DNA from: a virus
Length of the DNA: 25,991 bases
Virus record (IMG/VR): IMGVR_UViG_3300034072_000675
Span: 1 to 25,991 of that record
Reading direction: 5' to 3' (one strand)
Positions 2,738 to 4,256 of the stretch are shown here, piece by piece. Each line of letters opens with the position of its first letter. Within the stretch, counting starts at the first letter, position 1. Under the pieces are notes generated by a model. That model saw only the letters and a list, made by a program, of their open reading frames with translations, searched no databases and was not told the origin of the DNA. The position numbers and the translations under genes are program-made.

Positions 2738-2751
2738 TTCCTCTAGTGGAA
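2738..2751. promoter_or_regulatory. CTAG-centred 14-bp palindrome, copy d
   Basis: This is TTCCACTAGAGGAA on the minus strand, one base different from the three copies further right. It lies between the ArdA stop and the leader hairpin of the 70-aa gene. It overlaps a perfect 7-bp stem CCTCTAG/CTAGAGG (2740-2746 and 2754-2760). Confidence 0.6.
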
Positions 2752-2769
2752 AGCTAGAGGCGTGAAGAA

Positions 2770-3276
2770 TCACCAGTTATTGTGGAAGTAATGCCCGTTA
2801 GAACTACTAAAGTCATACATTAAGTCCCACGCAAAGCGTGAAGTGTCAAAGTATGCCTTGAGGCTATCCGGTACACCGTCCAGCATCCCCGTGGATTCTA
2901 TGTAGTCATCCGCGAAGTCTTCATCGCTACCAAATTGCCCCATGTAGGCATCGTTAGCTTTCTCTAACAATTCCGCATAGTCCATACTTCCGCTAAATCC
3001 GAAGCAATCCGTGAAGGCTCCAACTAGTTCCCGTTCATCTTCATCCATTTCAAGCCAGTGCCATAAGTTCTCGCTTAAGCTGGACTCCCCGTAAAACTCA
3101 CGCGGGAAACCTTCGAAGTCCTGAAACATAAACTCAGGGTCGGCCTCGTCTTTGTGGAGTTCACGGCAAGCCTCATAAAACGATTCCTCGTCGTGGCCTT
3201 CAAGGTCAACCCATGCGCCCTCGATTGAGCCATTGTTGTATTTTGCGTAAGTACCCACATAAACTTGAGTAGTCAT
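2770..3276 (-). CDS. ardA: ArdA-family anti-restriction protein
   Basis: The 168-residue, strongly acidic product matches the ArdA pattern along its length: VYVGTYAKYNNGSIEGAWVD at the N-terminus, a middle FQDFEGFPREFYGE, then AYMGQFGSDEDFADDYIES and the C-terminal YFDTSRFAWDLM. ArdA proteins mimic bent DNA and occupy the DNA-binding groove of type I restriction-modification enzymes, protecting entering DNA. T7 uses the unrelated mimic Ocr (gp0.3) as its first early protein; this gene takes an equivalent early place. The ATG at 3276 has AAGGGAATTATT upstream. The repeated 36-nt hairpin lies 35 bp upstream, in its 5' leader. Confidence 0.88.
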   Translation of the reverse strand: MTTQVYVGTYAKYNNGSIEGAWVDLEGHDEESFYEACRELHKDEADPEFMFQDFEGFPREFYGESSLSENLWHWLEMDEDERELVGAFTDCFGFSGSMDYAELLEKANDAYMGQFGSDEDFADDYIESTGMLDGVPDSLKAYFDTSRFAWDLMYDFSSSNGHYFHNNW

Positions 3277-3311
3277 AATAATTCCCTTTCATACCTAATC
3301 GGGCAAAAGTG

Positions 3312-3347
3312 CCGTGCTAGTGTCCTTGGAGGAAGACACTAGACCAG
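3312..3347 (-). repeat. 36-nt hairpin element, copy 2
   Basis: This matches 1725-1760 with one mismatch in the loop and has the same CTAGTGTC/GACACTAG stem. It begins 4 nt after the stop codon of the mini-protein gene ending at 3352, the same spacing as copy 1. It forms part of the leader of ardA. Confidence 0.8.
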
Positions 3348-3351
3348 CCTT

Positions 3352-3519
3352 CTACTTTCTAACGTGCGTACCTTCCTGCACTTCGTCTACCCTACTGTCA
3401 GGGCTGTCCTGCTCACATGCCCCGCATTTATCGCACCTAATGGAGACGTTTTTATCGTGTATGTAGGACACTACGCACTCACAATCCCAGTGGCTTTCGG
3501 TTGTTTTAAATTTAGTCAT
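3352..3519 (-). CDS. Zinc-finger-like mini-protein (55 aa)
   Basis: The frame starts with ATG at 3519, 6-7 nt after the AGGGGA of a palindromic element, and ends at 3352. The 55-residue product contains CEC (C13, C15) and CDKCGAC (C29, C32, C35), a spacing compatible with a small zinc ribbon, followed by a charged tail. The start MTKFKTTE resembles MKFKRVTE of the 52-aa Cys-rich protein, and both genes are followed after 4 nt by the same hairpin. I do not recognise a family. Small zinc-binding phage proteins often bind host enzymes or nucleic acid, but no role can be assigned here. Confidence 0.75.
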   Translation of the reverse strand: MTKFKTTESHWDCECVVSYIHDKNVSIRCDKCGACEQDSPDSRVDEVQEGTHVRK

Positions 3520-3525
3520 AATAAA

Positions 3526-3539
3526 TTCCCCTAGTGGAA
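3526..3539. promoter_or_regulatory. CTAG-centred 14-bp palindrome, copy b
   Basis: TTCCACTAGGGGAA on the minus strand, ending 6 nt before the ATG at 3519. It contains the AGGGGA ribosome binding site of the 55-aa mini-protein gene. As RNA, TTCC/GGAA can pair and partly mask the site. Confidence 0.65.
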
Positions 3540-3558
3540 TGTTAAAGATAATAGATAA

Positions 3559-3669
3559 TTACAGGTCATTCCAGTCAATCCAACCCATTACAAGTGAGAC
3601 ACCACAAGCAACCGAGAGGAAAGCACAAGCCGCCCAAAAGTAAGCCAATAAAAGAATCAGGTTTTCCAT
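3559..3669 (-). CDS. One-helix membrane mini-protein (36 aa)
   Basis: A short frame starts with ATG at 3669 (TTAAGGG lies 8 nt upstream) and ends with TAA at 3559. The 36-residue product is MENLI, then a continuous hydrophobic stretch of about 23 residues (ILLLAYFWAACAFLSVACGV and on), ending in the polar IDWNDL. It should be a single-span inner-membrane peptide. Its start is 2 nt past the stop of the 77-aa gene, so the two are coupled. Function is unknown; early phage peptides of this type can act on membrane enzymes or in exclusion. Confidence 0.6.
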   Translation of the reverse strand: MENLILLLAYFWAACAFLSVACGVSLVMGWIDWNDL

Positions 3670-3671
3670 AA

Positions 3672-3905
3672 TTAACCCTTAACTAAAAACGTGAAGTCAG
3701 CGACCATGCACCACATACCGTTAACCAGCTTTGTATATTCATCACTAACCGCTACACAATCACAAAATGAAACCTCATCATCAAGTAACTGGTTGTTCAA
3801 TATCTTTATGTCTTCTTTGTCTAGCCCTGAATAATCGTGATTAACTATTGCGCTAGCCCAAATTGACGGATAAGTAAAAACTACAGTTTTATAACCAGCT
3901 CGCAT
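3672..3905 (-). CDS. Hypothetical phage protein (77 aa)
   Basis: The 77-residue product has the pattern VFTYPSIWASAIVNHDYSGL, then DKEDIKILNNQLLDD and a C-terminal MWCMVADFTFLVKG. Small proteins with an FxYPSxWASAL(I)NxDYSGLxxED start are known from many phages and have no established function. The ATG at 3905 follows AGGGGAATATT directly, and that ribosome binding site is part of a 14-bp palindrome shared with the gene at 3519. It is the first clearly intact gene downstream of the sigma70 promoter at 4228-4256. The membrane mini-protein gene follows after 2 nt. Confidence 0.8.
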   Translation of the reverse strand: MRAGYKTVVFTYPSIWASAIVNHDYSGLDKEDIKILNNQLLDDEVSFCDCVAVSDEYTKLVNGMWCMVADFTFLVKG

Positions 3906-3909
3906 AATA

Positions 3910-3923
3910 TTCCCCTAGTGGAA
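3910..3923. promoter_or_regulatory. CTAG-centred 14-bp palindrome, copy a
   Basis: TTCCACTAGGGGAA on the minus strand, directly before the ATG at 3905. It contains the ribosome binding site of the 77-aa gene. It is identical to the copies at 3526 and 4234, and all three share flanking A/T-rich bases. Confidence 0.65.
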
Positions 3924-3939
3924 AGTTAAAGACAAAATG

Positions 3940-3964
3940 AAAGGCTCTCTAGGCGAAAGCCTTT
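3940..3964. terminator. Hairpin with T-rich flank, possible terminator
   Basis: AAAGGCT (3940-3946) pairs with AGCCTTT (3958-3964). An alternative inner stem AGGC/GCCT exists. TTTTAGTTT follows on the plus strand and CATTTTG on the minus strand, so it could stop transcription in both directions. It separates the promoter-proximal region from the 77-aa gene. Confidence 0.5.
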
Positions 3965-3979
3965 TAGTTTGAGCGCTGG

Positions 3980-4151
3980 TTACGTATCCAGCATTGCACA
4001 CGTTATACAATCGTAAGGCTCCCCATACTGGCTACCGTCATAGCGATTTCTGAATGGGCTGGTATCCTTGGCGCACCAAGTTTTACTCTCTGCTGATACT
4101 AAGCAGCTCCACCTGTTAAATAGGCCGTGGTCGCCTTTTAAACTTATTCAC
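3980..4151 (-). pseudogene. Probable frameshifted Cys-containing mini-protein gene
   Basis: From 4135 to the stop at 3980 the minus strand reads a protein-like frame of 51 residues with four Cys (WSC, WC and CITC), but without a start codon. Just upstream, a GTG at 4151 opens another frame reading MNKFK. Shifting +1 at the TTTAAAA run (4136-4142) joins the two into a 56-residue protein, close in size to its neighbours. The 172-bp span is one base longer than 57 codons, which fits a single-base insertion in the A run or a real +1 frameshift. The first base of a CTAG-type promoter leader lies about 70 nt upstream. It could also be non-coding leader RNA. Confidence 0.35.
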
Positions 4152-4173
4152 ATTGTGCCTAAAGCCACCCGCC

Positions 4174-4227
4174 GCGAACCCTAGTGTATACCGCTAGTCC
4201 GGTAGTTAATTGCTTAACATGGTTCGC
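4174..4227 (-). other. Three-way-junction inverted repeat
   Basis: An outer 7-bp stem GCGAACC/GGTTCGC (4174-4180 and 4221-4227) encloses two perfect hairpins: TACCG/CGGTA with a 6-nt loop (4189-4204), and GTTAA-GCAA-TTAAC on the minus strand (4205-4218). The GCAA loop is a GNRA tetraloop only on the minus strand, which favours a minus-strand RNA. However, the predicted start of the adjacent promoter (about 4221) would remove most of the 5' arm. A cruciform DNA or a longer transcript is therefore also possible. Confidence 0.55.
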
Positions 4228-4256
4228 ACTATATTCCCCTAGTGGAAAGTTGTCAA
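4228..4256 (-). promoter_or_regulatory. Strong sigma70-type early promoter
   Basis: On the minus strand TTGACA (4256-4251) is separated by exactly 17 bp from TATAGT (4233-4228), close to the sigma70 consensus. It points towards the early block (77-aa gene, ardA, regulator, integrase), as T7's host-read early promoters do. The spacer contains the complete 14-bp CTAG palindrome (4234-4247), where a bound repressor would block polymerase. Confidence 0.75.
4234..4247. promoter_or_regulatory. CTAG-centred 14-bp palindrome, copy c (in promoter spacer)
   Basis: TTCCACTAGGGGAA on the minus strand, identical to the copies at 3526 and 3910, lies wholly between the -35 and -10 boxes. This makes an operator role plausible for this copy. 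Confidence 0.65.

Follow-up and report, generated by a model that had tools for sequence, protein, structure and literature searches.

Bacteriophage T7 is the standard example of a strictly lytic phage, but an integrase together with a MarR-type gene is carried by many of its relatives. In the literature covered here, silencing of lytic genes in such T7-like temperate phages is proposed and not demonstrated. The paper on phage LUZ100 proposes that the MarR-type regulator encoded beside the integrase controls lysogeny (PMC10134795), and cites Boeckman et al. 2022 for MarR binding sites, which in this literature are described only as flanking the promoter that precedes the RNA polymerase gene (PMC10134795). 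Here we report on IMG/VR virus record IMGVR_UViG_3300034072_000675, positions 1 to 25,991, a 25,991-bp viral contig analyzed at full length (the window) that represents a 26-kb fragment of a phage genome, and on a 14-bp near-palindrome, TTCCACTAGRGGAA, that recurs in its early block. We found that the copies of this palindrome are probably operators for the phage's own MarR-type repressor, encoded at 1263-1613.

An earlier note on this DNA, made from the sequence alone, had described three identical copies and a fourth with a single change, all in the early block, and our scan of the window recovered exactly these, all on the minus strand:

4234-4247, minus strand: exact candidate operator copy, TTCCACTAGGGGAA, lying within the early-promoter spacer.
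3910-3923, minus strand: exact candidate operator copy that includes the AGGGG ribosome-binding site of open reading frame (ORF) 3672-3905.
3526-3539, minus strand: exact candidate operator copy that includes the ribosome-binding site of ORF 3352-3519 and also lies in a promoter-like spacer.
2738-2751, minus strand: candidate operator copy differing at one position, TTCCACTAGAGGAA, and situated between ardA and the gene that follows.

Rather than being equally frequent inside coding regions, the four copies all lie outside genes. Beyond them, the 25,991 bp contain no match at 0 or 1 mismatch, and no copy is found in the structural region of the window. At ≤3 mismatches there are 10 matches, compared to 2.2 ± 1.5 in shuffled sequences, with 0 of 100 shuffles reaching 10. 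An unbiased search of the window for recurring near-palindromes also ranked this family first; it has five members in the early region, while shuffled sequences produced a family of four in 1 of 300 cases and a family of five in 0 of 300. The dyad claimed in the earlier note is real but imperfect, with symmetry at 12 of the 14 positions, and the same asymmetry (an A at position 5 with no matching T at position 10) is seen in all four copies, which are all oriented in the direction of early transcription. The accompanying argument that the CTAG center is unusual for its rarity did not hold, as the window contains 76 CTAG sites compared to 93 expected, which is no marked depletion. The spacings between copies (324, 384, and 788 bp), considered with respect to DNA looping, have no common helical phase. 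As the note had claimed, two copies contain a ribosome-binding site ahead of an ATG, the AGGGG Shine-Dalgarno sequence lying 6 nt before the start codon of ORF 3672-3905 in the 3910 copy and 8 nt before that of ORF 3352-3519 in the 3526 copy. There is no start codon at a suitable distance from the 2738 copy.

We also scanned positions 1200 to 5700 for promoters, blind to the motif and with a cutoff of at least 10 of 12 consensus positions. Exactly three coding-strand promoters reached this cutoff, and each has a palindrome copy in its spacer, exact in the first two of those listed and degenerate in the third; for background, 10/12 or better occurred 3 times in 1500 random positions.

4228-4256, minus strand: early sigma70-type promoter, TTGACA-17-TATAGT, 11/12, the top promoter score in the early region.
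3518-3545, minus strand: promoter-like site, TTAACA-16-TATTAT, 10/12, from the promoter scan.
1692-1720, minus strand: promoter of the regulator gene, TTTACA-17-TAAAAT, 10/12, from the promoter scan, with the fifth copy in its spacer.
1701-1714, minus strand: weaker fifth copy, TTCCGTTAGTGAAA, the best match to a position-specific scoring matrix after the four main sites.

The 17-bp spacer of the early promoter is filled by the 4234-4247 copy, confirming the near-consensus TTGACA-N17-TATAGT arrangement seen earlier. Because the -10 element of the 3518-3545 promoter and the start codon of ORF 3352-3519 overlap, this promoter would drive ardA or other genes beyond that ORF. The fifth copy had been overlooked in the earlier note. 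Its significance depends on the length compared: equally good matches arose in 2 of 300 shuffles when flanks were included, in 42 of 300 for 16 bp, and in 208 of 300 for the 14-bp core.

The candidate repressor and the integrase form an adjacent pair:

1263-1613, minus strand: MarR-type winged-helix regulator, proposed repressor (phrog_9665; AlphaFold model).
257-1249, minus strand: tyrosine integrase, directly downstream of the regulator (PF00589, E = 3e-20).

The regulator product is 116 amino acids long and matches the phrog_9665 profile at an E value of 3e-17. Its AlphaFold model has a predicted local distance difference test score of 87.9, and the best PDB matches listed for this model are MarR-family proteins (E values down to 1.1e-4, TM scores up to 0.68), with MepR and MepR-DNA complexes among them. 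The winged-helix protein to which the note had pointed is, by this predicted fold, of the MarR type. The protein by itself matched no Pfam or NCBIfam model; weak matches to MarR and MarR_2 came from other members of its alignment. In S-CBP2 and pelagiphages, the homologues carry a MarR annotation and lie directly before the integrase gene, and LUZ100 has the same regulator-integrase pair. The MarR-type gene is the sole recognized regulator in the early block. The window as a whole contains a tRNA-Leu, the tyrosine integrase, the small regulator, ardA and other small early genes, a stretch that is not translated, and genes for packaging and structure of the T7-like kind; almost all are on the minus strand. 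With a MarR gene beside the integrase, T7-like packaging and structural genes, and the gene order of L092-L104, the phage is, judged by gene content, a member of the MarR-integrase temperate Autographiviridae.

The nearest relative is a prophage in Methylovorus sp. MM2, which was found both as a viral contig and in the host genome and which has the single-subunit RNA polymerase gene that is absent from the 26-kb fragment. Identity between the window and MM2 is 82% for terminase, 86% for capsid, 72% for portal, and 63% for integrase, but only 27% for the regulator. The MM2 prophage lacks TTCCACTAGRGGAA; its recurring near-palindrome, TATTCCCTAAGGAATA and variants of it, is a different one. In MM2, copies of the TATTCCCTAAGGAATA type lie at two promoter-like sites of the early promoter region (35590 and 35624) and at a position (36428; L005:13533) that corresponds to window position 2738. 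Others overlap the ribosome-binding site of the first early gene (35694) and that of the RNA polymerase gene (L090:757), and a further one closely follows the polymerase gene (2419). A search of the 2.4-Mb host genome for TATTCCCTAAGGAATA at ≤2 mismatches gave four places, all of them inside the prophage. Phage Pasto has a third palindrome, GTCACTCAAAGGTGAC, with copies in the early promoter region, before the first gene (393, 552, and 698), at the gene starts at 1301 and 4741, at 3533, upstream of the polymerase gene (8768 and 8868), and just after it (11856). The layout is kept while the palindrome changes with the regulator, which is the strongest argument from the sequences for a repressor-operator pair; such co-divergence is the behavior of heteroimmune repressor/operator pairs.

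This recurring-palindrome pattern is clear in three phages only. De novo palindrome searches of a Limnohabitans phage and of contigs G002, G003, G005, G006, G008, G009, and G012 gave no convincing set. An extended 21-nt motif had no match in viral contigs, and a 15-mer had 25, one per locus, which is chance level; none of these 25 loci encodes a relative of the regulator, the integrase, or the RNA polymerase, and no immunity-group mate was found among them. The viral contigs searched contained no close relatives of the regulator or of the integrase, and the exact motif was absent among the terminase relatives searched.

Of the three functions that the earlier note had offered for the palindrome, that of a repressor operator is well supported at the sequence level, given the positions in promoter spacers, the weaker copy at the regulator promoter, and the joint divergence of palindrome and regulator seen with the closest relative. 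We infer that during lysogeny a repressor dimer would bind a 16-bp dyad, WTTCC-N6-GGAAT. At 4234 it would occupy the early-promoter spacer, block host RNA polymerase, and silence the early operon, and at the weaker 1701 copy in the repressor's own promoter it would provide negative autoregulation. The copies at 3910, 3526, and 2738 would be secondary operators that block the 3518-3545 promoter and probably act as road-blocks to transcription escaping the first site.

Several points weigh against this model. The fifth copy is weak, with 3 of 7 dyad pairs broken and significance only when flanks are included, and the MM2 regulator promoter has no convincing copy, the best being AATACCTCAGGGTATT with 5 mismatches. 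A symmetric dimer would not need the common orientation and asymmetry of the four main copies. Promoter scores around the sites of MM2 and Pasto are close to background, and the joint change of palindrome and regulator within a conserved layout rests on one close pair and one distant phage. De novo palindrome searches of LUZ100, nine pelagiphages, S-CBP2, RHEph01, and TRX32-1, a set in which most members carry an annotated regulator-integrase pair, yielded no recurring palindrome of significance. Finally, the RNA polymerase half of the phage, where further sites are predicted, lies outside the contig.

Some of these points bear on the view, which we consider unlikely, that the palindromes are operators of a different protein, either another phage regulator encoded outside the fragment or a host factor. 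The missing part of the genome could hold another regulator, and the weakness of the fifth site makes autoregulation uncertain. However, the MarR-type gene is the only recognized regulator in the early block, and its MM2 counterpart has diverged far beyond terminase, capsid, and integrase, in step with the palindrome; a host factor also fits poorly with the restriction of the MM2 palindrome to the prophage. A second view, to which we give little credence, is that a leader cassette consisting of a promoter -10 element or a ribosome-binding site plus a start codon was spread by duplication and binds no protein. Two 28-nt stretches, one at 3900 and one at 4224, share 93% identity over more than the palindrome, with GTGCGA after the 4234 copy and ATGCGA after the 3910 copy. 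The conserved core is nevertheless the palindrome, as the flanks vary at 2738 and 3526, and duplication alone does not explain a different palindrome at the equivalent place in MM2.

The remaining two functions suggested in the earlier note fared less well. An RNA hairpin that hides the ribosome-binding site and controls translation would fit the Shine-Dalgarno sequences in the 3' arms of the 3910 and 3526 copies and the same overlap at the first early gene and the polymerase gene of MM2. The predicted stems, however, have 4 to 5 bp and -3 to -3.8 kcal/mol, no better than shuffles, and the 4234 and 1701 copies lie between -35 and -10 elements and are absent from the transcripts of those promoters; the lack of a suitably placed start codon at 2738 also counts against it. 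Weak stems and spacer copies missing from the corresponding transcripts together make a role in RNA alone unlikely, and we regard this explanation as quite improbable. Promoters for the phage's T7-type single-subunit RNA polymerase are a highly improbable reading, even though the motif contains CACTA, all sites are oriented with transcription, and one MM2 copy lies a short way downstream of the polymerase gene, a location in which T7 has promoters as well. MM2 has a separate family of candidate promoters that resemble the T7 consensus, ATAAACACCCACTGTAGGAATA (also written (G)GGGATAAACMCCCACTGTWGGAATA and GGGATAAACACCCACTGTAGGAATA), located downstream of the polymerase gene, upstream of the gene at 15231, at the left end, and once upstream of the polymerase gene (L064/L065 positions 2470, 15147, and 34746; L090 position about 625). 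The window has one match to this family:

4994-5025, minus strand: candidate T7-type phage-polymerase promoter, distinct from the palindrome and matching the relative's promoter family better than any other place in the window.

The structural region without palindrome copies and the position of the 4234 copy inside a near-perfect host promoter also argue against the phage polymerase, and we rejected the palindrome as its promoter on the basis of this distinct family in different places. The candidate MM2 family is useful in itself as a polymerase-promoter pair of this phage group.

Other features of the early block and its surroundings are as follows:

18-102, minus strand: tRNA-Leu beside the integrase, likely attachment site.
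2770-3276, minus strand: gene for the ArdA antirestriction protein (PF07275, E = 1e-28).
3352-3519, minus strand: small Cys-containing early ORF, 55 amino acids (phrog_18262).
3672-3905, minus strand: first small early ORF, 77 amino acids (from the ORF list).
3940-3964, minus strand: hairpin resembling an intrinsic terminator, located after the early promoter and before the first early gene.

The tRNA-Leu is the likely attachment site because the Methylovorus relative is integrated at a tRNA-Leu; the contig has no host flank that would show integration of this copy. At the gathering threshold, Rfam identified only tRNAs in the window. Upstream of the capsid gene, the phage carries tRNA-Pro and tRNA-Met (22652-22809, minus strand), and the Methylovorus relative has a tRNA-like sequence at the corresponding place.

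The terminator-like hairpin has a counterpart at the same relative position in the relative (L005:12768-12781). Between the early promoter and this hairpin, the minus strand of 3936-4222, which lacks a long ORF, has a predicted fold slightly more stable than those of shuffled sequences (-88.1 kcal/mol, z = -1.85) and could represent a leader or a small early RNA. At 2661-2721, also on the minus strand, a 12-bp perfect inverted repeat (arms 2661-2672 and 2710-2721) would mask, in mRNA, the ribosome-binding site belonging to the ORF that begins at 2659, and the relative has a similar TTTAAGCCTCTC element (L005:13560-13625). This is a possible translation-control hairpin, apart from the operators. 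Two 43-nt elements that are 91% identical (1718-1760 and 3305-3347), each with a CTAGTGTC/GACACTAG stem, lie directly 3' of the stop codons of the small Cys-containing ORFs 1765-1923 and 3352-3519; a terminator, a processing site, and a mobile small cassette are candidates for their identity. Imperfect long inverted repeats of AAGTAACACTTAAG-like units are located after the terminase gene in both phages (window 4328-4362 and 4962-4996; L005 11663-11710 and 11907-11954) and are perhaps linked to genome ends or packaging.

With a defined candidate operator, a likely repressor, and two independent pairs in MM2 and Pasto, the model of MarR-type control is directly testable. These would also provide a rule for predicting the immunity groups of T7-like prophages, as well as new orthogonal repressor-operator parts. 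As a tentative generalization, T7-like temperate phages might use a MarR repressor that, in addition to shutting the early promoter, has stoperator-like sites that double as ribosome-binding sites of the early and RNA polymerase genes, halting leaked transcription where translation starts, and immunity groups might arise by joint change of MarR and palindrome.

Like the MarR-integrase temperate Autographiviridae (LUZ100, Pasto, and the integrative pelagiphages), the window has a MarR gene directly upstream of a tyrosine integrase gene, a tRNA-Leu beside the integrase, and T7-like structural and packaging genes, and in that module, too, MarR is proposed to repress through specific binding sites. 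In contrast to the published description, the candidate sites here occupy the host-type early promoter and the starts of early genes, with a weaker one in the regulator promoter. The mycobacteriophage L5-type repressor has sites in promoters and short intergenic spaces whose orientation correlates with transcription (PMC9283540), and it binds as a monomer to a 13-bp asymmetric site and is not a MarR protein (PMC9283540). The promoter and intergenic locations and the common orientation with transcription resemble these stoperators, and by analogy the sites may stop elongation. An asymmetric 13-bp monomer site is not what we found, however: the window has a 14- to 16-bp near-palindrome (12/14) with a MarR-type candidate, in few copies and, within this fragment, in the early region only.

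The autorepressors MepR, MarR, and MexR share with the window's regulator its predicted fold and possibly a site in its own promoter, where the copy is degenerate; they control cellular genes, such as those for efflux systems, and respond to small molecules, and the window's protein, at 116 amino acids, is shorter. The T7 early region likewise has host-type early promoters before small early genes near the genome end. T7 is not known to have a MarR gene or palindromic operators in its early promoters, and we read the palindrome of the window as distinct from a T7-type promoter. A phage repressor with a set of operators is a known arrangement; the new elements here are the proposed MarR repressor, the T7-like context, and candidate operators that double as ribosome-binding sites.

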